Part shown: piece after piece, positions 1 to 46,888 of the stretch | How positions within the stretch are numbered: the first letter of the stretch is position 1 | How the letters are laid out: every line of letters begins with the position of its first letter | Assembly: GCF_000327485.1 (NCBI RefSeq) | Contig: NC_019943.1 | Location: forward strand, 434,001-498,000 | Direction of reading: 5' to 3' | Length of the DNA stretch: 64,000 bases | From: Methanoregula formicica SMSP | GTDB lineage: Archaea > Halobacteriota > Methanomicrobia > Methanomicrobiales > Methanospirillaceae | Translations under genes and position numbers: made by a program | The notes under the pieces: generated by a model | What the model saw: the letters and a program-made list of their open reading frames with translations, nothing else | Databases searched by the model: none | Told to the model about the DNA's origin: nothing

Positions 1-339
1 AAAGATCTCTTTTTATTGGAAACTTGTGTGAATTCATTGGATAATGGGAATATTAATAGTGTATATGCAGATGATCAAGGGGAAGATAAGCCATTCAATG
101 AAATCAAATGTAGACCAGCACGGGATTGGATTATGCAGGAATTAAAAAAATACTATCCTTACGTATATTGTACTCGTACTCAGCCTGCTCATTCGGATTA
201 CCCCATAATCTGGCCTGCAAACAGAGAAGAATTTATAAACACACGTTGTGTTTTTGTAGCATCAAAGCGTGTGCTTTGTCATCCTACCCTTATTCCTGAT
301 ATTCCGCAATCTCAAGGAAGACTTGAACCGATAATATAA
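1..339 (+). CDS. C-terminal fragment of a SAM-dependent methyltransferase-like protein (5' end outside window)
   Basis: The frame is open from base 1 to the stop at 339, so the gene starts upstream of the window and only about 112 C-terminal residues are visible. The fragment opens with KDLFLLETCVN and later has CRPARDW and TQPAHSDYPIIWP. From memory this is the tail seen in class I SAM methyltransferases of surface-polysaccharide loci, where a strand ending in LETCV follows the nucleotide-binding core. The SAM-binding motif itself is not in view, so the family call is inference. It is the only plus-strand gene in the first 15 kb and is AT-rich like the rest of the glycan island. Confidence 0.5.
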   Translation, partial: KDLFLLETCVNSLDNGNINSVYADDQGEDKPFNEIKCRPARDWIMQELKKYYPYVYCTRTQPAHSDYPIIWPANREEFINTRCVFVASKRVLCHPTLIPDIPQSQGRLEPII

Positions 340-1130
340 GTACGTAATTAAGATATGACAAATGGATTATCAGAAATCGCTAAGCAGGAAAGTATATTCC
401 TGACGATTAAACTGTATTTTCTACCATATCATACCAGTACGATTTAATCGAAAATGATGTACATTACTTAACTTATTTCATGTGATTTTTTTTCAATGGA
501 CATATGGATGAGATGTTAACGAAATTTGAGCGTGCAATCTCTTTCGTTCTAATAAATATCAAAAATTTTCCCGCGATCCCGGCAATCCAAGTATTTCCGG
601 AAAAATGAATTCGAAGGTAACTACGATCGGGATCTGTTTCGTATATTAGTAAAATGGTTTTCTACAGAGCGAAGAAATTTGTAATTTTGACAAAAACGCT
701 CATGCATCTACTATCTTTAAAACAGTTTATTAAGCGCACTATCGGAATAAAAATACAATCCCTTATGCGATTCAATTAATGTAATTGTTTAAAAAAGATC
801 TGAAATCATAATGCTGAAAGAAATCACTTTTACAAATCAATTCCTTTCTCTCAAAGATGCATTATTAATATTGGAGAAATCATGAAGATATAACTTTCTT
901 TAAACACAATTGCATGGGACCTCTAGAACTACTCAACTCACAGAAGTAAAAATCAGACCATACAATTATCTGTTATAGTACAACCTTACATCGTTATGCT
1001 ACCTACGACGAAGGAAGTAGAAACGTGTCAGCAAACCGATGTACCAGGTTTGTTGAATCAACCATCGCCACATTTACCACTTACAGAATCGGCCTACGAA
1101 AATGTTGTAATATGACTTGGGAGAGAAAAT
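340..1130. other. AT-rich gene-free stretch upstream of the transposase relic
   Basis: About 790 bases with stops in all frames and no reading frame of 60 codons. It lies between the methyltransferase fragment and the recognisable part of a dead transposase. Its 3' portion probably includes the degraded N-terminal half of that transposase, but I could not recover a convincing alignment there. I see no tRNA, no obvious terminal inverted repeats of an insertion sequence and no long direct repeats. Confidence 0.5.
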
Positions 1131-1151
1131 AATGACTTGGGAGAGAAAATA
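1112..1151. repeat. Perfect 20-bp tandem duplication
   Basis: The 20-base unit beginning atgacttggg occurs twice head to tail at 1112-1131 and 1132-1151 without mismatch. It sits just before the surviving part of the transposase relic and looks like a replication-slippage duplication in unconstrained DNA. Confidence 0.9.
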
Positions 1152-1156
1152 TCCTG

Positions 1157-1660
1157 TACCATTATCGATTCATCAGGATTCATCAGCTTATAAGCCAGCC
1201 ACTACTTTTCATAGAGAATCGGGAACCAAGTATAAATGCTCCTGAAGTCATTTATTTCCGTCAATACGGATCACCAGATTATTATAGGTCTGAAAATCAT
1301 CCATCATCCAGTGCATAACATTCCTCACGTTGAAAAGACTCCTCAAACAATGTCACTAAACTAGGTGTTTTAATCTCTATGTCATGAACAAAGAATACGA
1401 TTCCGAAGAGATTCTGTGAATTAATTCATGAGACCCACAACTCTTGTTCCTTCATTCCAATCAGAAACAAAAAACTGAAACGGACCTTATGATACAATCG
1501 GAGACGGTTCGTTCTGTCGTTCGATGATGACAGAAAACACCAGAGAACCATCATTAAACGATATTCTCAATTAAAAAAAGTTCGATGAAGTCCAGAAAGA
1601 TCGAAATTATCGATTCCAGATCACGGAAATCAAAGTCAATCTATTAAATCACTCTAGATT
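1157..1660 (+). pseudogene. Decayed DDE transposase (IS4/IS5-like) relic
   Basis: Translating by hand across frames recovers a broken transposase. Frame of 1161 gives IIDSSGFISL-stop-ASHYFS-stop-RIGNQ, then LLKSFISVNTDHQIIIGLKI and HHPVHNIPHVEK. The frame of 1381 gives VMNKEYDSEEI, where I expect VMDKGYDSEEI in living relatives. The frame of 1421 gives LIHETHNSCSFIPIRNKK, and near 1590 KDRNYRFQITEIKVNLLNHS. This order (IDSSGF first catalytic Asp, PVHDIPHAEKLL-like stretch, DKGYDSEEIH second Asp, LIPIRNRK, KYRNQVKEIKLK) matches archaeal IS4/IS5-family DDE transposases as I remember them. At least five in-frame stops, several frameshifts and Asp-to-Asn in the second catalytic motif make it non-functional. 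The N-terminal half is unrecognisable. Confidence 0.72.
1167..1186. repeat. Perfect 10-bp tandem duplication inside the transposase relic
   Basis: The decamer gattcatcag is present at 1167-1176 and again at 1177-1186. It overlaps the codons for the first catalytic Asp motif of the dead transposase (IDSSGF) and puts one copy out of frame, so it may be one of the inactivating lesions. Confidence 0.85.
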
Positions 1661-1723
1661 GTTCTCTGCACAATCATTCCTAATTCTTATTGAGGAATAC
1701 TACAGTATCTATAAATCCATCAT

Positions 1724-2743
1724 TCAAATCCCAAGGGAGGAAAAGTCAATCTTTGGATAGTAACTTGCCATTTTTTTAATTCTTTGTTTTTGTTCAATGG
1801 TTAACACCGTTCCTCTACCTACGATCCCAACGTTTTTCATAGTAAATTGGTCCTTTGTTGAAAAAATTGCGGAGTTAATCTCCTCATCGCTTTTCTGTAT
1901 TCCAATCCAGTCAATTATTTTTTTTACTTCGTTATAGGGATTAGATAAGAGGCTTTCATATGATATCAATAAGATCTTTCCTTCTTTTACTAAATCTGAA
2001 GAAAACCATCCTGCATAAAAATTGAAATACCACGGAACAATTAAATCGATAACGAAATCCATCCTTTCATTTTCATTAAGTGATTTCCAATTATTTTCAT
2101 CCATATATGCCATTGGGAAATTCAACATTTTTTCACAATGATCGTAAAAACTGACAACCGTATCGTAAATATTCCTATATTGCAAAATCGGTTTTATTTC
2201 CAATTTGTTTATTATCTTCAGTGTTGCTTCTGAATATCGACAATGTTGATGAGGAGAGAAACAGTAATCCTGCATAACAGCGTGAATCAGATTAACTATA
2301 CTGATCTCATGTTCTCTTCTATCATGAATAAGCATCAATGGACAAACATTCCATTGTAGAAGATTTTGGAGGATTTGAGTCAGCCATGTTGATCCACTTT
2401 TTGGGGCGGCGATATGCCATAAATGAATCTTTAAATTTTTATTTGAAACTTTGTCATATTCTCTTATGCGAGATAAATTAAATCCCTTATTTAAATCAAG
2501 ATAAAATTTATAATATATTTTAGATAATACCGATCCACTTTTAGTGGCAGCAATGTATTTCAAATAAATCTTATAATTATGTTCTAATAATTTATCATTT
2601 TTAATATAATAAAGTAAATCCAGCCATTTATTTAAAAAATGATCAAAATCAAAATCCGCGTTGTTGTAATCAAAATAAATCGTTTTTTGGTTTTTTTCTT
2701 TTAAAATCATTTTTTTGGTATCAGTTTTTATTAAAAGATCCAT
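1724..2743 (-). CDS. PAPS-type sulfotransferase with a duplicated P-loop segment
   Basis: Predicted to transfer sulfate from PAPS to an acceptor, here probably a surface sugar. The 5'-phosphosulfate loop is APKSGSTWL (about residues 113-121). The 3'-phosphate loop is RNIYDTVVSF (R190, S198). A C-terminal GIVGRGTVLT resembles the conserved Gly-rich end of sulfotransferases. I start at the ATG at 2743 because a GAGGGTGAT ribosome-binding site ends 5 bases before it; an upstream GTG at 2752 lies inside that site. Residues about 58-76 (IAATKSGSVLSKI) are a degenerate copy of 105-124 (IAAPKSGSTWLTQI), and the DNA of the two stretches is also similar. Very AT-rich. Sulfotransferases are uncommon in methanogens; the acceptor is unknown. 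Confidence 0.85.
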   Translation of the reverse strand: MDLLIKTDTKKMILKEKNQKTIYFDYNNADFDFDHFLNKWLDLLYYIKNDKLLEHNYKIYLKYIAATKSGSVLSKIYYKFYLDLNKGFNLSRIREYDKVSNKNLKIHLWHIAAPKSGSTWLTQILQNLLQWNVCPLMLIHDRREHEISIVNLIHAVMQDYCFSPHQHCRYSEATLKIINKLEIKPILQYRNIYDTVVSFYDHCEKMLNFPMAYMDENNWKSLNENERMDFVIDLIVPWYFNFYAGWFSSDLVKEGKILLISYESLLSNPYNEVKKIIDWIGIQKSDEEINSAIFSTKDQFTMKNVGIVGRGTVLTIEQKQRIKKMASYYPKIDFSSLGI

Positions 2744-2996
2744 AATTATCACCCTCTGCTATACACAATTGTAACTAATAATCGTAATCAATTATCTAAA
2801 TCGCGGAGATCAATATATAAAAATTATCATCTGTAGAAAACCTTTACGATATGAAATGGTGGGTGACTTAGATTAATTGACGAATTGCTAAGGAATCATA
2901 TTCATTGTCTATAACGTAACAACCGGACTTTTGGTTATCGTGGTATTTTACAAGTAATTTAACAGTATATTAGGAATCTATTTTATTGAAAAACCA

Positions 2997-3986
2997 CTAT
3001 TTTTCAGCCTCCAGTGCTTCTCTGAAAAAACTACCGATATCTTCACGATTAATAATTAGTGCAATCAGTCCTCCGATGATAAACGAACCAAAATTGATAA
3101 TATGCGACAGGATTGCATAGCTCAATGCCGTTACAGGATTTATGTTAAATATTGATAATGTGACAATCGCGAGATAATGATATACTCCAATATTACTTGG
3201 CATCGAAGGTATCACCATTCCGAGATTATTTACCACTAGTGTCATAAATGACAATGGAAGCCAGGTGTCTATCCCAAGGCTCCAGAGAATACAGGAATTC
3301 AATAAAAAGGCAAAAGACCAGATGATCAATGTCCAGAGTGTGATTTGAATAAACCGGAAAGGATTGTTGAACACTTTGAATCCCAAGATAAATGAGTTGC
3401 TACATGGCTCAATATACTGTCTAAATTTCCCAAGGGGGAGTTTGGAAAAAATTTTCAGACAGACATCCTGGAAGGATTTTTTTGATTTATAAATTAAAAT
3501 CAGGCAGATAATGAGTATTAAAACGAGTCCTGCAATCAATTTACCGGAGAAAATAATCCAAGACGGAAGAGGCAAAAATAAACTAATTACAAAAAATAAT
3601 CCCAATAAGAAACATATATCAAATAATTTTTCAATGATAATTGTTGTTAATAACTGGACTATAGAGATGCACGATTTTTTTGACAGGAAATAACTGCGGA
3701 TAATTTCCCCTAAACGGAACGGTAAGATCGCATTTCCCAAGTACCCGATCCAGACTGCTGAAAATGCATCCTTTTTTTGAACACTATCAGAATCGATTAG
3801 TAAAACCCATCTTCGGGATATCGCCCACATCGAGCAAATTAAAAAAAATATTGATAAAACCAGAAAAAATATATTTGCCGTTGCAAGGACGGGGAATATG
3901 TCAACAATTTGAATCTGTCTTAGTATCAGCCAGATGGCAATTATACTAATTATATAGGGAATTAATAACTTTATATATGATCTCAA
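2997..3986 (-). CDS. Flippase-like / LPG-synthase transmembrane-domain protein
   Basis: A 329-residue integral membrane protein with about eight hydrophobic segments. The N-terminal half has AILPFRLGEIIRSYFLSKK, matching the R-x-GE-x-x-R signature of the lysylphosphatidylglycerol synthase transmembrane family (UPF0104/AglD C-terminal type). A second signature, GMVIPSMPSNIGVYHY, fits the conserved P-x-x-x-G-x-x-E/Y stretch. Archaeal members next to glycosyltransferases, such as the membrane half of AglD, are thought to act in lipid-linked sugar transfer or flipping; that role is inferred here. It lies downstream of the GT39-like gene in the glycan island, in the same orientation, with a 78-base gap. 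Confidence 0.75.
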   Translation of the reverse strand: MRSYIKLLIPYIISIIAIWLILRQIQIVDIFPVLATANIFFLVLSIFFLICSMWAISRRWVLLIDSDSVQKKDAFSAVWIGYLGNAILPFRLGEIIRSYFLSKKSCISIVQLLTTIIIEKLFDICFLLGLFFVISLFLPLPSWIIFSGKLIAGLVLILIICLILIYKSKKSFQDVCLKIFSKLPLGKFRQYIEPCSNSFILGFKVFNNPFRFIQITLWTLIIWSFAFLLNSCILWSLGIDTWLPLSFMTLVVNNLGMVIPSMPSNIGVYHYLAIVTLSIFNINPVTALSYAILSHIINFGSFIIGGLIALIINREDIGSFFREALEAEK

Positions 3987-4064
3987 TTATTTCCCCCACG
4001 CCTTATAAATCTCAATGAGCAAACAATCATACAACTATTCAAATTTTGTTGTTAAAAGGATATC

Positions 4065-5852
4065 TTACCCAGCTTTCAAAACGCTTAAATTATAAGCAAT
4101 TTTACCGTAATTAATCCTTTTTTCGGCGGTGATTTTCAGTGAAATTCCATGTTTTGCATACTTAGCGATTATTCTTTGTTGATTAATTGAATTATTTTGA
4201 ATTGAAGAGATAATCACAATTTTTTGATCTGTTTTCAGCTTTGTTATAATATCTCCTGAAATATTTTCAATATTCTGTGTTGGTTGTGCTCCGGTATCAG
4301 AAAGGTAATGTCCATACCAATGTGAATCTACAGCTGAAACGAGGCTGTCTACTATCGGCGGTGTTGGAATTGCCGAGCAATCAGCACAGATCGGGAGATT
4401 GTCGTTGATGTCCGTCCAATATAATGCCTCCCGAGAAGGATCGATATTCATCATGTATTCTGTTGTTTCAGAAAAAACAACATGGAAATCCTTATTAACA
4501 GCGCATTTTTGGTTCCAGTAATAATTATTTGAAAATGGCGCAATTAGCAGACAATTCGCGAGGCTCAGTCCGATCAGCAGAATAATTATTGCCCATGTTT
4601 TTCCTTTTATAAGATAAAAACCAGCAAAACTAGCAAATCCAATAAGAACCGGTAGTAGCCAGCTGATTTTCGGAAAAATATCTGAAAAGGCACCTTGAAT
4701 TGAACTAATGAACGGTCCCGTTAAAAAAACCATGGGAATTGTAAAAATTATTATTGTACATAGTGGTAGAAAATATCCTCCATATGTCTTGATATTTTTT
4801 ATAGTTAAATATAATATACTACCAATGGCTATCAGCATTGGGCCAATTATTCTGAAGGCTGGGTAATCGTGCGTTAAAACTGTTTGTTTCCATACGAATG
4901 TGAAATATGCTAAAATACCAAAAAGGATAAGAAATTGTAGTATTATACTGATAGCGATTATGGTTTTTTGATTTTGTATTTTTTTAATGTTTTTAATATA
5001 ATATATAAGTATCACTAATCCAAGAATTGAAAATAAAATCGGAAATGCAAGGTGATTTGCCGTTAAGATCCAGCTATTGTCTGATGGATACCATACATTT
5101 CCTTTTGATAAGTATATAATATAATTTAATTGAGGTATAAAAAATAAAAACAACCCGCCATAAACGTAGTTAACAATCGAATAAATTGCTGTAATGCCTA
5201 CAGAGCCAATACCAATCCAAATGAATGATATCACAGAGGGATATGTTTTCAAACGTATTTTATGTAGAATAATGTAATGTCCCACCGCAAAAATTACCGG
5301 AAATATGAAAAATGGATCGAGATGGAGAGCACTTACAAACGCTGCACCTGAAACAAATAACCAGCATGTCCTATTTCGATTTGTTGTTGCCAAGGTAATA
5401 GCAAGAAAACCGAGACAATAATAAAATAACAAGGGAGTATTATGGTAAAGCCACCCCCCTGATCCATGAGCAAATGGGTAACAACTGATAAAGACTGAAC
5501 TGATGATGGCAACATTTCTATTGAATAAGTTTCTCATTAAAAAATATACGCAGATCGTTGTCCCGCACAATAATAATAAAAGGATGACATAGTGCCCGGT
5601 GAGAGGACCAAACAAGGAATAACTGATATGCCCCGGAATAATCCATGGCAAACGGCAATCTTTGTAATCATTGATGAATCCGCTTGTATAAAAAATGAAT
5701 TTTCGTAAAAACATCCAAGGATCAAGTGGTCCAACTTCAGTAAATAACCACTTTTGTGGTGCAGTAAGACAAAAGATAAATAATGGAGATATAATAATTA
5801 ACAAGTCTGGGCTAAAATCTTTAATTCCTTTTATTATTTTATCTAACCGCAT
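4065..5852 (-). CDS. Polytopic membrane protein, GT39/PMT-like glycosyltransferase candidate
   Basis: A 595-residue protein with roughly 11-12 hydrophobic segments filling residues 15-440, followed by a soluble C-terminal domain of about 150 residues. The first extracytoplasmic loop contains TEVGPLDPWMFL, placed where dolichyl-phosphate-mannose-dependent (GT39/GT-C) enzymes carry their acidic catalytic motif. The overall layout is that of archaeal GT-C proteins in surface glycan loci. I do not recognise a specific subfamily and cannot name the sugar. Its stop is 78 bases from the next gene and its start is 81 bases from the preceding C-methyltransferase stop, all on the minus strand. An O-antigen ligase or polymerase is an alternative. 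Confidence 0.6.
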   Translation of the reverse strand: MRLDKIIKGIKDFSPDLLIIISPLFIFCLTAPQKWLFTEVGPLDPWMFLRKFIFYTSGFINDYKDCRLPWIIPGHISYSLFGPLTGHYVILLLLLCGTTICVYFLMRNLFNRNVAIISSVFISCYPFAHGSGGWLYHNTPLLFYYCLGFLAITLATTNRNRTCWLFVSGAAFVSALHLDPFFIFPVIFAVGHYIILHKIRLKTYPSVISFIWIGIGSVGITAIYSIVNYVYGGLFLFFIPQLNYIIYLSKGNVWYPSDNSWILTANHLAFPILFSILGLVILIYYIKNIKKIQNQKTIIAISIILQFLILFGILAYFTFVWKQTVLTHDYPAFRIIGPMLIAIGSILYLTIKNIKTYGGYFLPLCTIIIFTIPMVFLTGPFISSIQGAFSDIFPKISWLLPVLIGFASFAGFYLIKGKTWAIIILLIGLSLANCLLIAPFSNNYYWNQKCAVNKDFHVVFSETTEYMMNIDPSREALYWTDINDNLPICADCSAIPTPPIVDSLVSAVDSHWYGHYLSDTGAQPTQNIENISGDIITKLKTDQKIVIISSIQNNSINQQRIIAKYAKHGISLKITAEKRINYGKIAYNLSVLKAG

Positions 5853-5933
5853 TAATTCACGTTAGTGAAGCCAAAATAAAACACTATTGATTTTGTTATT
5901 GAAAAAATTTGAATAAATCAAACATTGTCGAAC

Positions 5934-7181
5934 TCAAATAATTTTCGGTTGTGGTAGCGGAATAATAAATTTCCCCAGATATCCCTTTTCCTTGAGTTTC
6001 GGGATTAACTCATCTGCAATATGCCAAGAGAAGATGACTACGAATTCCGGTTGGTTCTCAAAGATGAATGACTCATCAAGGATTGGTATTAATGTTCCCG
6101 GGATATATTTTCCGATCTTATGGGAACCTTTGATCTCGACAACGGCATCAATTATCCCATCATCAAGCCCAGTATAATTGATGAGAGTACTTGCCCTTGA
6201 TGGAGCGCTAATCCCATAGATTCTTTTACCTGATTTTTTAATGGTTAACAAAAGTTCGTACAGCTGCAATTTTGAAATAATGATATCATTCTTGAACTGC
6301 CTCAATCGATCAACAGTAAATCCCATCTTTTGTTCTGCATCGAGCAATGTCTTGACAGAGGGTTTTACATCATATTCTCCTATGTGAGCAGCATAAACGC
6401 GGATTGAACCGCCGTGCGTAGGTATCCTCTTTGCATGGATAATTTCAAATCCGTGTTTGTTCAGGAGGTACTGGAGACTGTGGAGAGAATAATACCGCAA
6501 ATGTTCGTGGTAAATTGTGTCGTACTGTAATGTCTCGATAAGTGATATCAGGTAATGTGATTCCGAAATGAATATGCCATCTGGTGTTATCATTTTCTTG
6601 ATAAGTTCGGTAATTTCATTGACATCATCGATATGGGCAAAGACGTTTGTAGCTGTTACGATTTTTGCCTTACCGTGTTCTGAAATCACTTTGTTGACAA
6701 CATCAGGAGAAAAATAATCAATGATTGTGGGAATTCCACGGGAGATTGCAATCTTTCCAATCTCTTCCGGTGTTATTCCTAGGACCTTGTGATTGTCCTT
6801 AAAGTTGTTCAAAAGGTTTCCATCGTTTGATCCAATATCGACTATGAGATCGTCCTTGGTTAAAGGAACGATTGTCTTGCATTCATCGTACAATTCGGCA
6901 AAATTATCACGGAGAATTTTTGTCGTGCTGCTGGTATATGGATATTCTTTGGGGAATAATATCTTTGGATTCACAATCAGACCCAACTGTACCAGGTGAC
7001 ATTGCGAGCAACACAGTAATTCTGCCGGATATGAAGGTTGTTCGTGAGGCTGTTGTCCGATCGGGTGAAGTTCGTTAACCGGGGGCAGATATCCCAGAAA
7101 CAAGACTGATTCCAGATGTGGATTTTTACAGATCTGACACTCTTCGACAACTTTACTGGTATATTCATTTTTTTGAACCAT
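5934..7181 (-). CDS. Zinc-ribbon SAM-dependent C-methyltransferase (NDP-sugar type)
   Basis: The three-part layout of sugar C-methyltransferases such as TylC3 is visible. The N-terminal zinc-binding domain has CQICKNP and CCSQCHLVQLG. The central class I SAM fold has IVDIGSNDGNLL. The C-terminal domain (Methyltransf_14 type) has YGISAPSRASTLINY. It probably methylates a deoxysugar nucleotide for the surface glycan. The longest frame opens at 7247, but that would put 22 extra residues inside the upstream epimerase gene. The ATG at 7181, preceded by a GGTGTG site, gives 415 residues and leaves 23 bases after the epimerase stop. The family normally accompanies the DegT aminotransferase and epimerase genes that lie upstream here. 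Confidence 0.85.
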   Translation of the reverse strand: MVQKNEYTSKVVEECQICKNPHLESVLFLGYLPPVNELHPIGQQPHEQPSYPAELLCCSQCHLVQLGLIVNPKILFPKEYPYTSSTTKILRDNFAELYDECKTIVPLTKDDLIVDIGSNDGNLLNNFKDNHKVLGITPEEIGKIAISRGIPTIIDYFSPDVVNKVISEHGKAKIVTATNVFAHIDDVNEITELIKKMITPDGIFISESHYLISLIETLQYDTIYHEHLRYYSLHSLQYLLNKHGFEIIHAKRIPTHGGSIRVYAAHIGEYDVKPSVKTLLDAEQKMGFTVDRLRQFKNDIIISKLQLYELLLTIKKSGKRIYGISAPSRASTLINYTGLDDGIIDAVVEIKGSHKIGKYIPGTLIPILDESFIFENQPEFVVIFSWHIADELIPKLKEKGYLGKFIIPLPQPKII

Positions 7182-7204
7182 TTTTTCACACCATATATAC
7201 TGAA

Positions 7205-8188
7205 TTATGTTTTTGAATCGGCAATTACTGAAGCTGAATCGTACCATTTCAATGTTTGTGATAGTCCTTCTTTGAGTGAATATTTGGGATGGAATCCTAA
7301 TGATCGCATTTTAGAGATATCCGGGCAACGTCTCTGTGTTCCCCCTAAGGCGGCTTGGCCAGGTACAATACAAATATTCTGATTGTAATAATCTGCAACC
7401 ATATTTGCAAGGTTCGCGATGGAAATCTCCTCCTGAGTACCGATATGGTAGATCTCCAGATGTTTTCCTTTGTCAAGTATTAATTCCAGCCCGGAAATAA
7501 AGTCCTCAATGAAAATGAAGGATCGTGTGTCGGATCCGTTTCCCTGAACAGGGAACCTAATAGTTTTTTCAGATGAATTATTCAGTAATTGCTTTATCCG
7601 GACAGCAAACTGGGGAATAACATGTTCCCAACCCATGTCAGGGCCGTACACATTATGGGGGCGGAAGATTATTACCCGGTCAAAAAATTTTCTCCCGAAA
7701 TTGATTGCCATAATCTCACTGATTATTTTCCCAGCTGCATATGAATATCGCGGATTTAGGGGGTCCGGAATGGAGAGTGGGACGGACTCATTTGTGGGGT
7801 ATATCGGGGGTGTCTGATATACTTCGGAGCTAGATGCAAGAACCAGTTCCCTGACATTTTTTTCCTGGCAGGCATCCAGAATGTTGGTTATGCCTTTGAC
7901 CCCGACATCCAAGACAAATTCTGGTTTTGTATAGAAGAATTCCGTACCATTGACGAATGCCAGATGGATAACAGAATCGATATCTTCCATCGCTCTATTC
8001 ACAGTTCTTTTATCCCGGATATCTCCTTCGAAAAAATCTATTTTGTCTGTTATATCGTTCAACCTGTTAAATGATCCCCGAGAATTGTTATCAAATACAC
8101 GAACGTTCAGGCCTTTTTTAATTAGCCGATGAACTAAGGCACTACCAATAAATCCTGTGCCTCCGGTTACAAGATAAAATTTTGGCAT
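7205..8188 (-). CDS. NAD-dependent nucleotide-sugar epimerase/dehydratase (extended SDR)
   Basis: A 327-residue extended short-chain dehydrogenase/reductase. The Rossmann motif TGGTGFIG is at residues 8-15. The catalytic Ser lies in LASSSEVYQ (about 119-121), and the Tyr-Lys pair is in YSYAAGK (Y150, K154). This set defines nucleotide-sugar epimerases and 4,6-dehydratases of the GalE/RmlB group. I cannot decide between 4-epimerase, 4,6-dehydratase or 4-ketoreductase from sequence alone. The stop is one base from the start-side neighbour's codon context: the GT2 gene upstream ends at 8190. It sits in an operon with a sugar aminotransferase and C-methyltransferase, suggesting synthesis of an unusual amino- or C-methyl sugar. 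Confidence 0.85.
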   Translation of the reverse strand: MPKFYLVTGGTGFIGSALVHRLIKKGLNVRVFDNNSRGSFNRLNDITDKIDFFEGDIRDKRTVNRAMEDIDSVIHLAFVNGTEFFYTKPEFVLDVGVKGITNILDACQEKNVRELVLASSSEVYQTPPIYPTNESVPLSIPDPLNPRYSYAAGKIISEIMAINFGRKFFDRVIIFRPHNVYGPDMGWEHVIPQFAVRIKQLLNNSSEKTIRFPVQGNGSDTRSFIFIEDFISGLELILDKGKHLEIYHIGTQEEISIANLANMVADYYNQNICIVPGQAALGGTQRRCPDISKMRSLGFHPKYSLKEGLSQTLKWYDSASVIADSKT

Positions 8189-8189
8189 A

Positions 8190-9038
8190 TCATTTCTCCA
8201 TATTATTCTTAGGGTACGGTCTCCTTATTATTTTGTACACATCATTTGACCGATTCCTGAATCGTAACTTCAAAATGCCCCACATATATAGTCTGAAATA
8301 TTGGATGAACCATTTTTTAAAATTTTGAGTTGACACCCCTCCAATCAAGCGGTCTATTGAAGTTAAAGGGACTTCTCCTAATTTTAAATCAAGCAATTGC
8401 GCTTTTACAGACATTTCAAATGCAAATGCCCATCCAATTGGCGCGAATTCAAATGAAAAAAGCGGAAAAACTGATTTTCTGAACATTTTAATTCCGGTTG
8501 TGGCATCTGAAAGGTCAGATCCTGCAAGAAATGTAAATGTTTTATTTCCTAACCTTGATATAATCCCACTGATCAGATTTCCTCCTAATCGTTTCCCGCC
8601 ATAAGAATACCGGGTACAATTGATAAAATCACATCCTTCGTCAAGCAGAAGTATCATGTCATTTATCGCAAATATTGGTAATATTTCATCTGCTGGATAT
8701 ATCAGAATGTACTTTCCATGAGATTCACGGATACCCGTCCTGACGGCATTCAATACTCCAGCTCCTTGGGTATTTTGAAGCAATGTGATATTGGGATACT
8801 GCTTTATTAAGTTATTAACAACGGGGACACTGTTATCCTCGGGAAAATCATATATGATAATGATCTCCTGAGAACAGGACACAAATAAATTCAGCATTTT
8901 TACTGTAACCGGAATATTTGCCCCCTCATTTCTTACCGGTAATAAAATCGATAATTTCACCGAATTCTCACTGGCCAAATAATGAATATCCTGGCTATTA
9001 AGGGAAGTGGTTTGTGAGACAGTCATATGGTTATCCAA
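8190..9038 (-). CDS. Family 2 glycosyltransferase (dolichol-phosphate mannosyltransferase-like)
   Basis: A 282-residue GT-A fold enzyme opening with LSILLPVRNEGANIPVTV, the classic family 2 nucleotide-binding strand. GKYILIYPADEILP takes the place of the DxD metal site. SDATTGIKMFRKSVF matches the D-x-x-x-G-x-r stretch of the DPM1/polyprenyl-phosphate subgroup. No C-terminal membrane segments are evident. It may charge a lipid carrier or extend the glycan. The start at 9038 overlaps the end of the aminotransferase gene by 8 bases, which implies translational coupling; an in-frame ATG at 9026 is a possible alternative start. Confidence 0.8.
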   Translation of the reverse strand: MDNHMTVSQTTSLNSQDIHYLASENSVKLSILLPVRNEGANIPVTVKMLNLFVSCSQEIIIIYDFPEDNSVPVVNNLIKQYPNITLLQNTQGAGVLNAVRTGIRESHGKYILIYPADEILPIFAINDMILLLDEGCDFINCTRYSYGGKRLGGNLISGIISRLGNKTFTFLAGSDLSDATTGIKMFRKSVFPLFSFEFAPIGWAFAFEMSVKAQLLDLKLGEVPLTSIDRLIGGVSTQNFKKWFIQYFRLYMWGILKLRFRNRSNDVYKIIRRPYPKNNMEK

Positions 9039-10143
9039 AAAAACGCTTTATCTGGTTACATACATATTCGACATCAGTGTCTTCCAAGATAAATGCAGAT
9101 GGAAGCCACATAGCTTTGGACATTAACTGAGTGCTTTGAGAAAACAGTGCATCATTCTGAAAATACGGCTTTTGTGTGTGAATCGGGTACCAGAATTTTC
9201 TGCAGTGAATTCCCATTTTCTGGAGATACGATTCCACCACGTCACGTCTTTCTATGATTGCATCTGTCCATAAGGGAATTTCTCCCCGATTTATCTTAAA
9301 TCCGATAATTGATACATTAGATGAATTTTCAAAATGATCTGAATAAATTGTATAAATCTCTTTTTGTCGTTGTAGTCGATTATGTAAAACAGACAGTTGT
9401 CCCAACCCGATTGCAGCCTGCAGGTTTGTCAACTTGAAATTATAACCAACGGAATAATGAATGTCATCTCCGCCCGTCCCCCTTTTCGGACGACCTTGGT
9501 CTTTTAGTTGACGAAGGATAATGTGGAGATCATCATCATTAGTAACGATCATCCCACCCTGCCCTGTTGAGATCGTTTTATTGGGAGAAAATGAAAAACA
9601 TCCGGCGTTTCCAAAAGTTCCCAGATACTTCCCGTCAATTGAAGACATGAAAGCTTCGGCGGCATCTTCAACGATAAAAAGGTCATATTTTTTCGCAATT
9701 GACATAATTGCGTTGAGATCTGCAGCCCTCCCGCTCACATGAACTGGAATAATTGCGCGTGTTCTTTGGGTTATGGCAGATTCAACAGCCCCAGGTGATA
9801 TGGTAAGTGTATCCGGATCAATGTCAACGAGAACTGGTATGGCTCCGGTCAATTTTACTGCATTGGCAGTTGCAATAAATGTTACATCTGGCACTATGAC
9901 TTCATCGGAAGGTCCAATTCCCAATGCTGCAAGTGCAAGAAATAATGCTGATGTACCACTTGTAACAGCAATTGCATGTTTAACTCCAAGTAATTGCGCA
10001 ATTTCATTTTCAAAACGGGTTGTATAATCCCCCTCATTCAGATAATTACTGTCAAGTACTTCTCTCACTAATTCGTACTCTTTCGGGGTAACTTGGGGTG
10101 ACCACCATGGATAATCTCGATCCTTCCCTCGCCCGTTTTTCAT
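9031..10143 (-). CDS. DegT/DnrJ/EryC1/StrS-family PLP-dependent sugar aminotransferase
   Basis: Converts a keto-sugar nucleotide to an amino sugar using PLP. The Schiff-base lysine is in FSFSPNKTISTGQGG (about K189). The cofactor-binding Asp is in VEDAAEAF (about D160), and the phosphate-binding TSGTSALFLAL is near residue 62. The frame is open from 10197, but the ATG at 10143 follows a strong GGGGTGATAAT site and gives 370 residues, the family norm. The upstream start would overlap the preceding methyltransferase gene. Together with the SDR enzyme downstream it points to an amino-deoxysugar in the exported polymer. Confidence 0.9.
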   Translation of the reverse strand: MKNGRGKDRDYPWWSPQVTPKEYELVREVLDSNYLNEGDYTTRFENEIAQLLGVKHAIAVTSGTSALFLALAALGIGPSDEVIVPDVTFIATANAVKLTGAIPVLVDIDPDTLTISPGAVESAITQRTRAIIPVHVSGRAADLNAIMSIAKKYDLFIVEDAAEAFMSSIDGKYLGTFGNAGCFSFSPNKTISTGQGGMIVTNDDDLHIILRQLKDQGRPKRGTGGDDIHYSVGYNFKLTNLQAAIGLGQLSVLHNRLQRQKEIYTIYSDHFENSSNVSIIGFKINRGEIPLWTDAIIERRDVVESYLQKMGIHCRKFWYPIHTQKPYFQNDALFSQSTQLMSKAMWLPSAFILEDTDVEYVCNQIKRFFG

Positions 10144-10147
10144 ATTA

Positions 10148-10948
10148 TCACCCCATTCGCCGTAGTACAAAACCTTGAATAGGACCGAAGGAGTCACCCT
10201 TATTCACTTGTATTGTAATTTTATTACCATATTTTTCGTGCAACTCACGAGCTGCAACATCTGCGATATCAAATATCCTATCTTTTTTCGCGAGAGATCC
10301 ATAACCCTCAAAATTCGCGAACATATTCAAAAAAACTCTAGTCAATAAATAATATAAATTGAATGTGTGTGTTGTCTCTATCACAAATTTATCTTCGATA
10401 TAATCTATGAATTTGTCATAATGTAAAAAGTAATTGTGCCAGTCATGCAGAGGGATGTTTGGCAAATTAACACCACGCCTTACGGCATTTAATTCCTCAA
10501 ATCCCTCAAATGTATTTTCAACCATAATATATCGTCCACCCGGACGAAGAGTACTCCAGATATTATCTATTATTTGTTTTTGCTCATCCCACGACAAAAA
10601 ATTTATTAAAACGCGCTGAGTAACGACAACATTAAATTTCCCTGAATAGGCAGATAAATCAAGAATATCTCCATCAACAAGTGAGATATTTTTAAGTTTT
10701 TCTGATTTGAATCGCTTTTTTGCTATTGATCTCAATTGGTTTGAATGCTCTAATGCCAAACACGATTTGACTTTTTTTGCATAATGAATTGTGGATTCAC
10801 CGCCCCCACAACCAAGATCTGCCAATTCGTCGTTAGAACTCAGATGCGATAAAACAAAATCTGTCTCAAGTTTTCTTAGATTTTTATCCAATAGTGAGAC
10901 CGTGTTTGGCATCTCCCAATATTCATCAATTTTCGCGCGATCGGTCAT
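10148..10948 (-). CDS. Class I SAM-dependent methyltransferase
   Basis: A 266-residue protein with the SAM-binding motif ADLGCGGGES (about residues 43-52), an acidic residue at the end of the next strand (ALEHSNQ) and a post-I motif in SLVDGDILDL. This is a standard class I methyltransferase fold. The substrate is not evident; a sugar or lipid-linked sugar fits the neighbours. The start is preceded by GGAGGGACACTGAT, and the stop of the dehydrogenase gene lies only one base upstream, so the two genes are translationally linked. Pairing of residue-level specificity is not possible from the sequence. Confidence 0.8.
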   Translation of the reverse strand: MTDRAKIDEYWEMPNTVSLLDKNLRKLETDFVLSHLSSNDELADLGCGGGESTIHYAKKVKSCLALEHSNQLRSIAKKRFKSEKLKNISLVDGDILDLSAYSGKFNVVVTQRVLINFLSWDEQKQIIDNIWSTLRPGGRYIMVENTFEGFEELNAVRRGVNLPNIPLHDWHNYFLHYDKFIDYIEDKFVIETTHTFNLYYLLTRVFLNMFANFEGYGSLAKKDRIFDIADVAARELHEKYGNKITIQVNKGDSFGPIQGFVLRRMG

Positions 10949-10949
10949 A

Positions 10950-12140
10950 TCAGTGTCCCTCCGGAAGGATCCTCCATAAATCCACGACTTCAGCAGATTT
11001 TGGAACTTTCAAAGTTTTATACGCAGTATGAGGTACCCCGACAATAATGATATCGGAAGAACGTACTAACTCTTCCTTGTTTATGAATGTGGGATCTTTT
11101 GCGAATTCGTCGGAATACAGCACTTCCGCCCCATAAAACCGCAAGATTTTCCCGAGCTTGTAAGAAAGCGAATCTCGTGTATCGTCTATATCCGCTTTGA
11201 AAGTCATACCAAGAATGCCTACTTTCTTCTTGCTCAAATCGTATTTTGCGCGTAATTGCTCAACAATGAATCCCGGCAGACCTTCATTTACGGTCATAGC
11301 TGCATGGCCGAGGAGAAAATTATTATTATTAAAAGCAGCAAGCTGCAGGGTATCCTTCAGAAGACAAGGCCCTGCAGCAAATCCCGCAGATGGCAGGCCA
11401 TATGCCCTGCCGTATCCGTCAACGATTGCCCGGCGGACTTTGTTAAAATCAACATCAAATCCTGCTGAGATCATATAGAATTGATTTGCCATGGCAAACT
11501 GAATATATCTCCAGGCATTTGTGAACAATTTTGCCAATTCAGCCTCTTCTATTGAGACCTGAATGATTTTTGGAGAGATTTGTCCAAATAACTGGCTTGC
11601 ATCGTTCAGTGCTTTATCACTAAGCCCGGCAACGAGCTGAGGCAGCTCCCGTAGTTCACGGATAGCATATCCTTGGATGATACGTTCCGGACAATATGCG
11701 ATATGCCAAGGCCCGCTCGCATCTTTTGATAATGTATTGAGTATCTGACCGCAGGTCCTTGGGTAAACAGTACTTCGGATGATAATGGTCTGTTCCGGGG
11801 AAATGTATGGGCGCATCTGGATAAACAGATCGATAAGTGCTTTCAGTTTTGGATTCAGGTATTCATCGACCGGAGTGCCAATTGCAACGATGATATATTG
11901 AGCGGTTTTTATCTGATTGATATCGGACGTCAAGAAAAGAGTTTTATTAATTACCTTTTTTAATATAGGTTCTGCATCATATTCAATGAACGGCATGTTT
12001 CCCTGACGGATACTCTCAATAACTTTCGAATTTACGTCATACAGGACAACCCGTTTACCGATATTGGCAAACGTGATCCCGAGGGGTAAGCCGACATGCC
12101 CCGCTCCACCTATGATGCAGATGTCGTTTGAGAAGTGCAT
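10950..12140 (-). CDS. UDP-glucose/GDP-mannose dehydrogenase family protein (nucleotide-sugar dehydrogenase)
   Basis: Oxidises the C6 hydroxyl of a nucleotide sugar to a carboxylate in two NAD-dependent steps, giving a uronic acid precursor. The Rossmann motif is IIGGAGHVGLPLG near the N-terminus. The active-site cysteine is in AAGPCLLKDT, and KVGILGMTFKADIDDTRDS opens the C-terminal domain. I use the ATG at 12140 because GAGGGAAC lies seven bases before it. The longest frame starts at 12197 but would overlap the upstream ABC gene by 23 bases. The final product (glucuronate, ManNAcA or other) cannot be told from sequence. Confidence 0.87.
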   Translation of the reverse strand: MHFSNDICIIGGAGHVGLPLGITFANIGKRVVLYDVNSKVIESIRQGNMPFIEYDAEPILKKVINKTLFLTSDINQIKTAQYIIVAIGTPVDEYLNPKLKALIDLFIQMRPYISPEQTIIIRSTVYPRTCGQILNTLSKDASGPWHIAYCPERIIQGYAIRELRELPQLVAGLSDKALNDASQLFGQISPKIIQVSIEEAELAKLFTNAWRYIQFAMANQFYMISAGFDVDFNKVRRAIVDGYGRAYGLPSAGFAAGPCLLKDTLQLAAFNNNNFLLGHAAMTVNEGLPGFIVEQLRAKYDLSKKKVGILGMTFKADIDDTRDSLSYKLGKILRFYGAEVLYSDEFAKDPTFINKEELVRSSDIIIVGVPHTAYKTLKVPKSAEVVDLWRILPEGH

Positions 12141-12174
12141 TAATGTTCCCTCAATAGCTTGGAGTTTCATCATA

Positions 12175-12909
12175 TTACCGTTTTTGTAATGAACCACGAT
12201 AATAGTCGATTACTTCTCTTGTCTCCCCCGTCACTACCGGCACCCCATAGTCCAGCAGGAGCGCTCTACTGCAGTGCTTCTTTACAGCCTCAAGGTCATG
12301 GGATACAAAGACGATAGTCACCCCTTCATTCTTGAAAGTATCAAGAATATCCAAGCATTTTTTCTGGAACTCCAAGTCTCCGACAGCAAGTACTTCATCA
12401 AGCAGCAGAATTTCGGGGTGGGTTTGCACCGCTGTTGCAAATGCCAGCCTGACCTGCATGCCCGATGAAAATCTTTTCAGTTTCGCATCCCTGAATCGTT
12501 CAAGGCCGGCAAAAACTAAGATGTCCTCGATCCGGTTCTCAATCTCTCTCCGTGAAAGCCCCATAATTGTACCATACATTTCGATGTTCTCTACTGCGGA
12601 GAAGTCATACTGGAACCCGACCCCGAGTTCGAGGAATGGAGTAATCGTCTTCCGGACCTCAACCTTTCCTGATGAAGGACGAATAATGCGAGAAAGGATC
12701 TTCAGGAGTGTGCTCTTTCCACTCCCGTTCTGGCCGATAACTCCGAACATCTCTCCTTCTTCGACAGAAAAACTGACCTCTTTGAGGGCTGCGAAGGTCT
12801 CGTAGCTGGTTGGACGCATAAGACCGGTCAATGCAGCAAACAGCGTATCCCGTTTCTCATGGGGGATACGGAATTCTTTGGAGAGCCGTTCGACTTTAAT
12901 AACGTCCAT
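12175..12909 (-). CDS. Polysaccharide ABC exporter, ATP-binding subunit (Wzt/TagH-like)
   Basis: A 244-residue ABC ATPase with Walker A GQNGSGKST (about 59-67), signature FSSGMQVRLAFATA and Walker B EILLLDEVLAVGD. The phrase ALKEVSFSVEEGEMFGVIGQNGSGKS and the sequence FLELGVGFQYDFSAVENI are typical of the Wzt/TagH/RfbB exporters of O-antigen or teichoic acid. It lacks the C-terminal carbohydrate-binding domain that recognises glycan caps in E. coli O9a Wzt, so it is the short type. The ATG at 12909 overlaps the permease stop (TGATG) and follows GGAGGAG, which argues against the GTG at 12912. Confidence 0.92.
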   Translation of the reverse strand: MDVIKVERLSKEFRIPHEKRDTLFAALTGLMRPTSYETFAALKEVSFSVEEGEMFGVIGQNGSGKSTLLKILSRIIRPSSGKVEVRKTITPFLELGVGFQYDFSAVENIEMYGTIMGLSRREIENRIEDILVFAGLERFRDAKLKRFSSGMQVRLAFATAVQTHPEILLLDEVLAVGDLEFQKKCLDILDTFKNEGVTIVFVSHDLEAVKKHCSRALLLDYGVPVVTGETREVIDYYRGSLQKR

Positions 12910-13688
12910 CACATCTCCTCCGCGAACCGTGGTTCAAGTCTAAGGAATATTATATAGCCGATAACAAGGATGAGACCGGAAGCAACACCGGCATAGGCAA
13001 GCGATAACGGGAACGGGGCATAGGAATAGAGAATACAGTCACGAGAGGTAATAATGATCTGGCCAATGGGATTTAACCGGAAGATATACTGTATTGACTG
13101 GGGAAAAATACTGAGCGGATAAAGGATGGGTGTAATAAAAAAACCTGCCTGGAGGACAACAGCCCAGATGAACTGGATGTCTCTGTAAAAAACGTTCAAT
13201 GCAGAAATAGCAAGTGCGGTTCCAAGCGTGAGAATGAAGAATATCGCAAGAATCGGTGGCAGGTAAAGAATGTTCCACGATAACGGGATATGGAGGGCAA
13301 TCATGAAAATAATAAAAATCAACGATTCGAAGAGACTCTGGAGCATCGCCGTAATACACGCGGAAATAACAAGGATCTCCCGGGGAAAATAGACTTTCTG
13401 GACAAGGCTTGGTTTCCCCACAATTGCCGTGAGACCCAGATTGGTTGCCTTAACAAAGAAATTCCACATGATGATCCCCAACAGGAGAAAGAGCTGGTAA
13501 TATTCTACCTGAACTTTCATCAGGTTGCTGAAAACGATATACAGGATAACAAACATTACGAGTGGTTCCAACAGAGACCAGAAGTAACCGAGAATGGAAT
13601 TCTTGTACCTCCACTTGAAATCTCCCCATGCAATCATCCAGATAAGATTGCGATGATAATAGAGATCTTTAAAATGGTCAATATCCAT
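12909..13688 (-). CDS. Polysaccharide ABC exporter, permease subunit (Wzm/TagG-like, ABC-2 type)
   Basis: A 259-residue protein with six hydrophobic segments. The N-terminal cytoplasmic sequence DLIWMIAWGDFKWRYKNSIL, written here as WGDFKWRYKNSILGYFWSLL, is the hallmark opening of ABC-2 exporters for O-antigen or teichoic acid. It would form a homodimeric channel with the adjacent ATPase and carry lipid-linked glycan across the membrane. The ATG at 13688 is preceded by GGTGA. It is the first gene of the tightly packed operon that continues to about 5934, and the 112-base upstream gap (13689-13800) should contain its promoter. Confidence 0.9.
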   Translation of the reverse strand: MDIDHFKDLYYHRNLIWMIAWGDFKWRYKNSILGYFWSLLEPLVMFVILYIVFSNLMKVQVEYYQLFLLLGIIMWNFFVKATNLGLTAIVGKPSLVQKVYFPREILVISACITAMLQSLFESLIFIIFMIALHIPLSWNILYLPPILAIFFILTLGTALAISALNVFYRDIQFIWAVVLQAGFFITPILYPLSIFPQSIQYIFRLNPIGQIIITSRDCILYSYAPFPLSLAYAGVASGLILVIGYIIFLRLEPRFAEEM

Positions 13689-13800
13689 TTTTCACCAATA
13701 TACAGTTATTGTCTTATATCTTACTCAACGTTTTGATTTAGATTTAAAAACACTGATAATATTCCTAGAAATGAATTACACAAAAACCAAAAATATTACC

Positions 13801-14841
13801 CTATATTTTTGATTCCAAGAGTGCCTGATCAAAAATACCCCAATTCTCTAGGTTATATCCATTTTTCCCTTTGTTTTTACGAATTTGATCCCGGTATTGC
13901 AATGCGATCTCAACACACTCCCTCCATGTAAGGAATGGAATATGCACCTGATCCAATCGCTGGAAAAGAGCCCTTTGGCCGGCACCTGGTGTGATTCCGG
14001 AGCCGATACTGTGTTCAATGTGATACGCCACCAAAGGCGGAATAAGGGCAGTCTCTCGAAATCCTGAAAAATATGCTACCATGAGGAACAGACTGTCGAT
14101 ATGCAGGGAATACATTTCCAGTTCCGGGTATCCCCGCAATGCCACCCAGTCCTCCTTTGCCATAAGGGTGAAATCCCCGCAGGCATTATAGTGCAGGCAG
14201 GGGGTCTTCAGTTTATATAGGAAATTCCGGCAGTAATATCTCAACAGGGCAGGATTTTTTATCACATCGGAAATAACGCCGCGGATGTTGACCATGCTGG
14301 TCAAATAATACCTTGAATTGATCCGGATTACGTGAGTCCGGCAGTAGGTGAGTTTTTCCTCGATCATTGCACCGGGAGGAATTGCTGAGTCAACATCAAT
14401 TCTGTCAACACGGTAAAAAATTCCCGGCTCCAGCTTTTTTTGTGAGAGAAACCGGATCAGTTCATCAGAGAATATTATATCGATGTTAGTGGCAAGGACG
14501 AACCTGCCTTTTGCCCTGCGGATACCCACATTTTTCCCGATCATCTGGAAAAGGGGGAGAACATCCGCATGCTGGAATTTTTTATGGACTTCTGGTGGGA
14601 CCGTAATAATCCGAATCGAAAGATAATCCGATGGTTTTGGCCATGATAATGCTTGTTCGAGCGGCAGACGATCTACAGGTGGATTCCATTCAACGATGAT
14701 GAGTTCCACCGGGAATTGGTATCTGCTTACCTGCTCGCTGATGCAATCGATGAATATCTGCATACGCTGCAATAGTTTCCCGCCATGGTCATCATTGCGA
14801 GATACTGCCACGATACTCAGGTAAGGGGCATTTGCAGGCAT
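13801..14841 (-). CDS. Glycosyltransferase-like protein (family 2-like, GT-A)
   Basis: A 346-residue protein opening with PYLSIVAVSRNDDHGG, a family 2-like first strand, followed by PVELIIVEWNPP. The region KNVGIRRAKGRFVLATNIDIIF supplies a DxD-like metal site (TNIDI) at about residue 118. The similarity to canonical GT2 enzymes is limited to this half, and the C-terminal half is not recognised. It is the first gene of the minus-strand glycan block. It is divergent from the GT2 gene at 15030 across a 188-base gap and is separated from the ABC exporter by 112 bases. Confidence 0.65.
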   Translation of the reverse strand: MPANAPYLSIVAVSRNDDHGGKLLQRMQIFIDCISEQVSRYQFPVELIIVEWNPPVDRLPLEQALSWPKPSDYLSIRIITVPPEVHKKFQHADVLPLFQMIGKNVGIRRAKGRFVLATNIDIIFSDELIRFLSQKKLEPGIFYRVDRIDVDSAIPPGAMIEEKLTYCRTHVIRINSRYYLTSMVNIRGVISDVIKNPALLRYYCRNFLYKLKTPCLHYNACGDFTLMAKEDWVALRGYPELEMYSLHIDSLFLMVAYFSGFRETALIPPLVAYHIEHSIGSGITPGAGQRALFQRLDQVHIPFLTWRECVEIALQYRDQIRKNKGKNGYNLENWGIFDQALLESKI

Positions 14842-35123: not shown

Positions 35124-35288
35124 GGTGTAGCCTCCTTGAATAGACGAACGTAAGTCCAGAAAAGTGCAGTGCAGGTACTGCTACTGACTCTCTGTAATCC
35201 CAAAGCCATGTTCAGGCAGTGCGGTGGTCGCACGTCGGACTTACATCTGTCAGCACATTAAACAGTGCTGGCTTACTATTGGCGGGGA

Positions 35289-45874: not shown

Positions 45875-46080
45875 GGCCGGCTCTGTTTTTTCCCGGAACC
45901 ATTTTTTCAGCGCGATCGTCCGGCCGGTTCGATCATGTCCCTTGCCCGACTCCCCTTCGGTTCCCATGGAAGAAAAACCGTGAAAATTACGTCGTGTTCT
46001 CTACGGGAAATTGTGGTATTTTTGGCAACTGCGAAAAGGGGGGTCGGGCAGGGGCAGATCATTCTGTACCGGAAAATATT

Positions 46081-46104
46081 GCGTGAAAAAATATTTTCTC
46101 ATGC
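46081..46104. repeat. 24-bp near-perfect AT-rich palindrome
   Basis: From GCGTGAAAAAAT to ATTTTCTCATGC, 10 of the 12 base pairs match when the sequence is folded on itself. The mismatches are at pairs 3 and 7. Just upstream is another gaaaatatt (46071-46079). It lies in the middle of the convergent gap between 45875 and 46297. Confidence 0.7.
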
Positions 46105-46248
46105 AGGATTCTCTGTAAGTAGTAAACCCCGGTCCTGCTGAACGGATGACAGTTTTTCTGAAGGAAGTTCCGTGTCTTGATGTCATAATGAGGGCAGGTT
46201 TTTCCGCACCAGGTAACGTGAGATTCCGGGAAAAATTTTGTAAAGGCT

Positions 46249-46282
46249 GGTCGGGAAAAAGAAAAATGTCCCCAGCCCGACC
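46249..46282 (-). terminator. Putative terminator hairpin of the 46298 membrane protein gene
   Basis: On the minus strand just after the stop at 46298, GGTCGGG (46282-46276) pairs with CCCGACC (46255-46249) across a 20-base loop. The loop contains the minus-strand T-rich run catttttctttttcc, and archaeal termination favours such T-runs. The arm sequences are perfect over 7 bases. Confidence 0.45.
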
Positions 46283-46297
46283 CCCTTGGCCAGCGAT

Positions 46298-46888
46298 TTA
46301 CGGTACCGCAGCTGTTGCCCGGCAGGCCTGCACGCGGTCGTGAAGGAGCAGGAAAAGGACCTGGACGACAACAGCGTCCGTCAGCGCAACCTGTCCGACC
46401 TTCACCAGGAAGTCCCCGAGCCAGGCGGGGTCGGTCACGTGCAGGGACGGGTTGAAGGTGCTGACAAGCACCACGTAAGCCAGGGAGCTGGCAAGCGTTG
46501 CGATGAAGGTGGCGACGAACGGTGCGGTTGTGCGGAACCGCACCGCGAGATATGCAAACACGAAGAAGCAGGCCAGGACCCCCACCAGCTCGCTCACTAC
46601 GTTGGCAAGCCCGAGCACGTACCCGCTCTTCATGACAAGCTGCCCGCTTTCGATTGCAATGGCGTGATTCGGGTTGGCAAGGATGGTCAGGACGCCGGCA
46701 GCGATCCCGATGCACAGTGCCTCCCTCCATGAGAACGGGAGCAGTACGATAAGGAGGCAGTATGCCGCGATCACGAACTCGGCGCCGACCGGGATCGCGT
46801 ACATCTTTGCAACAACAGCCCAGGCATAGTTCACGATCGCCCCGAGGATCAGGACTGCCGCAATGATCAGGATCTTCTTATGGCTCAT
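46298..46888 (-). CDS. Small integral membrane protein (S-component-like), unknown function
   Basis: A 196-residue protein with five to six hydrophobic segments (about 5-25, 35-58, 58-75, 88-118, 123-145, 160-183). The overall size and repeated hydrophobic stretches with small polar loops look like the S component of an ECF vitamin or ion transporter, with GYVLGLANVVSELVGVLACFF in the middle. I cannot see substrate residues and there is no ECF ATPase nearby. A TATTACCCC promoter element lies on the minus strand 34 bases upstream. The stop is followed by a hairpin with a T-run. Confidence 0.6.
   Translation of the reverse strand: MSHKKILIIAAVLILGAIVNYAWAVVAKMYAIPVGAEFVIAAYCLLIVLLPFSWREALCIGIAAGVLTILANPNHAIAIESGQLVMKSGYVLGLANVVSELVGVLACFFVFAYLAVRFRTTAPFVATFIATLASSLAYVVLVSTFNPSLHVTDPAWLGDFLVKVGQVALTDAVVVQVLFLLLHDRVQACRATAAVP

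Follow-up and report, generated by a model that had tools for sequence, protein, structure and literature searches.

Archaeal ORBs are described in the cited work as lying beside or near cdc6 genes, and for the Methanomicrobia the published consensus is TCCA[GC]T[GT]GAAA[CT][AG]A[AT]GGGGT (PMC4164010, Table 1). The AAA+ domain of Orc1/Cdc6 reportedly recognises the G-string (PMC3936714). ORB-rich regions outside the origin proper have been described as a model for Cdc6 titration (PMC3936714, PMC4010727), and datA of E. coli is a proposed initiator sink away from the origin (cited in PMC3936714). The dormant origins of Haloferax mediterranei, as reported, carry inverted ORBs, are silent in normal growth and adjoin a cdc6 gene of their own (PMC4595724). 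Among dispersed repeats, Correia, ERIC and related families are described as short and intergenic with inverted ends, and Correia elements can carry an IHF site (PMC10969869).

Here, we describe an intergenic element of an archaeal host genome (G000; 2.82 Mb in a single contig), one copy of which occupies a gap in the window, that is, the whole 64-kb stretch of DNA analysed. Its ORB-like boxes, extended G-strings and inverted array recall Haloarcula hispanica oriC1 and the oriC2-cdc6E downstream region, as these have been described. Unlike the Haloarcula ORB clusters, the present sites are dispersed, do not lie beside cdc6 and have a third repeat arm in common, and a sister type has arms without ORBs. 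They resemble the dormant origins of Haloferax mediterranei in being origin-like sites with inverted ORBs, but do not share the adjoining cdc6 gene reported there. The resemblance to datA lies in the proposed role only, is drawn without comparison of sequences, and concerns several dispersed copies here. Correia and ERIC repeats, together with the BIME and RIB elements of enterobacteria, which are short intergenic repeats with inverted ends, differ from these sites, which have three arms in fixed orientation, ORB boxes rather than an IHF site, and few copies per genome. It is quite possible, if somewhat short of probable, that what occupies the gap is not an RNA but an old copy, now fixed, of a dispersed DNA element that derives from mobile DNA and has words for binding a protein of the Orc1/Cdc6 type. 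The titles and abstract openings of the open-access literature yielded no description of such an element.

The gap lies between convergent genes and holds no convincing gene, as an earlier note on this DNA had stated; the ORFs within it are 61-68 aa long or are out-of-frame or antisense extensions of the neighbours. The same note had drawn attention to four occurrences of CCCGAC, arranged as two inverted pairs. All four are present, as CCCGAC at 45945 and 46276 and as the complement GTCGGG at 46043 and 46250 (the positions given earlier were off by at most two bases), and 0.35 would be expected in these 423 bases at the window's own rate. The first pair proved to be 19 nt long (45939-45957 and 46036-46054) and complementary at 17 of 19 positions, a degree of pairing reached by none of 300 dinucleotide shuffles of the gap. 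The second pair survives by half: the stretch at 46270-46285 is a third copy of the arm, complementary to the second at 15 of 16 positions, whereas GTCGGG at 46250 is not conserved and looks incidental, because G168 has GTTTGGG there. A 24-bp near-palindrome noted at 46081-46104 is likewise present, at 20/24, a score reached by 5 of 300 shuffles, but the matching stretch of the G168 orthologue scores at most 10/24, and we therefore do not count it as a working part. The features of the gap are as follows.

45901..46288 (approximate), + strand: whole element; left end placed by homology with full-length copies in G081, right end by where synteny with G168 stops
45939..45957, + strand: arm 1, CCCTTGCCCGACTCCCCTT, with two C-to-T changes relative to the family word
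45951..45970, - strand: ORB-like box 1, TCCATGGGAACCGAAGGGGA, overlapping arm 1, score 15.1
45990..45995, + strand: central CGTCGT, kept in three of the four species aligned at the window locus
46000..46019, + strand: ORB-like box 2, TCTACGGGAAATTGTGGTAT, degenerate in the window copy, score below 10
46036..46054, - strand: arm 2, AAGGGGGGTCGGGCAGGGG, the exact family word
46081..46104, no strand: near-palindrome, 20/24
46270..46285, + strand: arm 3, CCCCAGCCCGACCCCC, a third occurrence of the arm word, 236 bp beyond arm 2

Synteny with G168 stops just past arm 3 (window 46288-46298). Box 1 is the sole ORB match scoring at least 12 in the 64-kb window, and the G-run of arm 1 falls at its ORB G-string position. 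In other copies box 2 reads, for example at 682 kb, TCCACAGGAAATTATGGTGT, and the central hexamer of G081 at the window locus is CGTCCT. The distance between arms 2 and 3 at this locus is 236 bp in G000, 235 bp in G168, and 167 bp in both G013 and G081.

A search for the same gap elsewhere, which the earlier note had suggested, revealed it to be one copy of a dispersed intergenic element. The gap core matches five other places in G000 at 70-76% identity, besides short matches. The skeleton of the family is three copies of GCCCGACCCCC with a common 5-nt tip, in which arm 1 (+) and arm 2 (-) stand ~95 bp apart and arm 3 (+) follows 110-254 bp further on. A word search found seven loci of the CCCCT type in G000, and a relaxed inverted-pair pattern found an eighth, of the other tip type, at 2092 kb. 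By our own ORF calls, leaving aside the site at 984 kb, the flanking genes in G000 converge at the window and at 682 and 2554 kb, diverge at 535 kb and run in tandem at 88 and 273 kb, and this variation fits a DNA site that is independent of the direction of transcription. Among 40 genomes searched, G000 included, arm words with at most one mismatch number 8 to 17 in five of the 24 same-genus genomes and 0 to 2 in the remaining 35; the reversed control word is absent from the five arm-rich genomes. Across 199 genomes of the order, the relaxed pattern was positive in 12: ten of 28 same-genus genomes have 1 to 12 pairs, and two other genera have one pair each. A scan of genome contigs gave one distant Methanoregula locus, with a relative of one window protein at 43% identity and without an arm word at up to one mismatch. 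Among the genomes searched, the element is confined almost only to one archaeal genus, probably Methanoregula: that relative and an S15-Methanomicrobia leader in the window assign the host to the Methanomicrobia and probably to this genus.

Altogether, 63 arm pairs were found in 62 of the 67 loci examined, a count that includes two overlapping readings of the degenerate locus L125 (61 pairs after these were dropped for the analysis of tips); in copies from the relaxed pattern, nine inner bases of arms 1 and 2 were required to be exact. The cores of arms 1 and 2 have a preferred distance near 95 bp, the spacing being 94-97 bp in 39/63 (range 70-111). Arm 3 accompanies 48 of the 63 pairs (42 once recent copies and one degenerate locus are set aside), always in one orientation (48 to 0), where ~0.3 would be expected from a background of six matches in 579,232 base-strands, or 0.005 per element. 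There are two main tip types, A (CCCCT, that of the window) and B (ACACC), with G193 mixed. The tips of arms 1 and 2 are identical in 45/61, and that of arm 3 follows the type of the pair, being ACAC in 13 of 14 type-B elements and in none of 32 others. The distances to arm 3 at 42 sites show weak helical phasing, with R 0.31 and P 0.026 at 10.5 bp, R 0.45 and P 0.0008 at 11 bp, and none at 10.0 or 10.25 bp, in a post hoc comparison of five periods.

Most copies of the window's type carry ORB-like boxes at fixed places. Scored with a matrix built from the published Methanomicrobia expression (PMC4164010), 26 of the 63 elements (7,215 bases) contain 32 boxes of at least 15, compared with none in 363,674 flanking bases. 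Boxes are concentrated at position 12 (-; 29 boxes) and at 61-64 (+; 34 boxes). Matches to the consensus characterise the non-B elements and not type B: a score of at least 10 occurs in 39 of 46 non-B elements but is absent from the other seven and from all 17 of type B, and at least 57 of 60 shuffles are beaten by 42/46 and 1/17, respectively. Because they are missing from type B and from 7/46 others, the boxes cannot alone explain the arms. An invertible cassette is rejected because of the single orientation of the boxes relative to arm 3 in 31/31 elements that have arm 3 and two boxes. The best G000 copy, at 535 kb, scores 26.4, compared with 26.8 for the best box of the host oriC. This probable oriC comprises three ORBs at or just upstream of the cdc6-1 ORF start, at 170.2-170.6 kb (L087, G000 170247-170640). 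A fourth strong ORB of L087 lies at G000 174169, 3.5 kb away.

The cdc6 genes of G000 are at 169 kb and 2479 kb. No arm site of G000 comes within ~75 kb of either, so the sites do not adjoin an orc1/cdc6 gene, and neither the oriC region (14 kb) nor the cdc6-2 region (12 kb) has an arm word at up to one mismatch. The GC-skew profile of the 64-kb window has no change around 46 kb; the site is not at a skew extreme, which argues against a long-used origin, and an active origin at the window site is rejected on this ground. If oriC is placed at 170.45 kb, the seven sites of the CCCCT type lie closer to it than expected by chance, at a mean of 375 kb (P 0.015), as do all eight sites together (P 0.03), which lends weak support to off-origin Orc1/Cdc6 sites. 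Our best reading of the sequences is that Orc1/Cdc6 or a similar protein would bind the element away from oriC, possibly as an initiator sink. Proteins of the Orc1/Cdc6 family would attach to the boxes and also to the arms, which would act as extended G-strings, so that each element would take up several molecules; such off-origin clusters might either keep initiator from oriC or mark secondary origins that are silent. We think a sink or regulatory role likelier than an active origin. The TTCC-N3-GGAA dyads, which a different protein could recognise, count against Orc1/Cdc6. If the reading is true, a dispersed ORB-bearing family, spread in part by mobile DNA and kept at fixed loci, would allow initiator titration or dormant origins to be tested in methanogens and would reveal how sites resembling origins come about and change place. 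The geometry of the three arms provides a simple search pattern for further elements.

Type A is represented in G081 by five copies of at least 85% identity, four of which align over ~430 bp and have unrelated flanks. Type B, found in G187, G175, G018, G021 and G110, is ~335-340 bp long, with ~13-bp terminal repeats (TGCTCTGTAGAAA) and, judged by eye, exact 8-bp target duplications in 7 of 24 aligned copies; in some genomes it sits inside an IS5-type MITE. In two ~1 kb elements of G175, IS5-family transposase ORFs lie between type-B ends or overlap them, and one of the two elements has an exact 8-bp duplication. Type B therefore has the IS-shared TIRs and target duplication of an IS5-derived MITE; the ends and duplications of type A and of the window copy are not fixable from the alignment. 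Eight armless MITEs with the same IS5-type ends (228-480 bp; L185-L191, L195) occur in G000, G081 and G168. These MITEs and the pair of full-length IS elements all lack an arm word at up to two mismatches, and the arms are therefore not the ends of that IS. The family thus resembles IS5-derived MITEs in the TIRs and 8-bp duplications of type B and in having full-length IS5 relatives with the same ends; it differs from them in the unsettled termini of type A, in the existence of armless MITEs of the same IS, and in arms that outlive the rest of the copy. The window also contains matches to the IS5-type terminal repeat, with one or two mismatches, at 656-671 (-) and 2827-2842 (+), inside a low-GC region. 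Positions 1-14000 have a GC content of 33-42%, against 57-61% beyond ~20 kb, and are likely a foreign island or integrated element.

Individual loci were followed by scanning them whole on both strands. At the window locus, three arms are present in G000, G168, G081 and G013. The GNAT gene occurs in 18 of the 39 genomes searched, these four included; the other 14 have no three-arm site there, and the GNAT locus is partial in G193 and G006. On the far side, G168 and G001 share a ParE-family ORF, and between these same two neighbours the locus is occupied in one species and empty in the other: GNAT and the ParE-family ORF are 498 bp apart with the element in G168, and 60 bp apart without arms in G001. 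In G081, DNA matching the ParE-family ORF region lies ~390 bp from GNAT. The window itself has a membrane-protein gene where G168 and G001 have the ParE-family toxin ORF.

Two further loci were surveyed by their genes, with a match in 37 of 39 genomes and 30 loci read for each. The PHP/HxlB locus has three arms in 7/30 loci read and at a contig end of G013, making eight species; one arm is degenerate in G168 and in G193. Among G000, G168, G014, G187 and G175 its interiors cannot be aligned; between G020 and G013 they can (76%). Tip types differ at this locus even among G000, G168 and G014, which are close relatives. At the hisD locus, the site occurs in G000 only, of 30 loci read. In G175 there are two isolated arm words, each with a single mismatch; G014 and G207, whose sequence is cut off on the side where the site would lie, were left unscored. 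G168 has a HisD of 97% identity and no arms at this locus, and single sites are therefore dispensable. Across 19 orthologous pairs, arms 1 and 2 are 88-100% identical (with one exception at 81% and one at 69%) and interiors 31-88%; these pairs were mostly found via the arms, which biases the figure for arms, a bias from which the gene-anchored surveys are free. Sites thus come and go, but the arms tend to be retained wherever a site persists. The earlier note had named, besides the absence of a transcript, a lack of arm conservation in close relatives as refuting its proposal; the arms are conserved. We speculate, as a possible but doubtful extension, that these are initiator sites spread by a transposon at the level of the genus: mobile DNA would take ORBs, with arms as their extended G-strings, to new places in the chromosome, and the host would then keep the three arms as sinks or silent origins while the interior turns over.

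The same observations bear on another account, that of a selfish MITE only, spread by an IS5-type transposase, with arms that are relics or transposase-binding repeats and old copies that are decaying. The terminal repeats, 8-bp duplications and IS5-family transposase relatives of type B would all follow from it, as would the five type-A copies of G081 (four aligned, with unrelated flanks), the empty site in G001 and the site missing from hisD in G168. We nevertheless consider it unlikely, because the arms persist at PHP/HxlB in eight species with interiors that mostly cannot be aligned, because two full-length IS elements and eight armless MITEs manage without an arm word, and because the enrichment of ORBs exceeds the needs of transposition. 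Another architectural or regulatory protein might instead bind the arms as a BIME/RIB-like or parS-like site, with ORB-like boxes belonging to one lineage only. The arms are indeed the only feature common to types A and B, their tips change together in all three, and the weak phasing of arm 3 would suit such a protein. This seems quite improbable to us: there is no candidate protein, the phasing is post hoc, and the number and position of sites vary between species.

Much the least probable is an RNA reading, as the gene of a structured RNA or as a cis-acting switch, where arm 2 would pair with arm 1 or arm 3. The earlier note had offered a small RNA gene or a DNA structural site, and of these the latter is supported, as a dispersed three-word DNA element with ORB-like boxes, whereas the RNA is not. 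The arms are complementary, and the tips of types A and B keep that complementarity; the gap folds strongly (z -5.3 on the + strand, -4.2 on the - strand), but owes this to the arms. The folding of the window interior does not exceed that of shuffled sequences (z -0.5 for either strand), and six interior folds from five loci range from -0.1 to -1.9. Box 1 can pair with box 2 in the window copy and two orthologues, and at one box-centre position three of the four species at the window locus allow three different pairs (C-G, A-U, U-A). The folding and covariation check suggested earlier nevertheless found no significant covariation: across 37 elements, among them the window copy and L124, the centres of the two interior boxes pair no more than shuffled ones (P = 0.23). 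Further, pairing is broken in 19 of 23 differing tip columns. A conserved fold with compensatory changes is not seen. The varied orientation of neighbouring genes also speaks against an RNA, and an RNA has no need of a near-constant spacing between arms 1 and 2. The gap has no match to an Rfam family at the gathering threshold. Part of the second pair had been suggested to terminate the membrane protein gene; arm 3 is unlikely to do so, since it is kept in G168 and G081, where a different gene follows. Elsewhere in the window, an S15-Methanomicrobia ribosomal protein leader lies at 35194-35269 on the - strand (74.9 bits).
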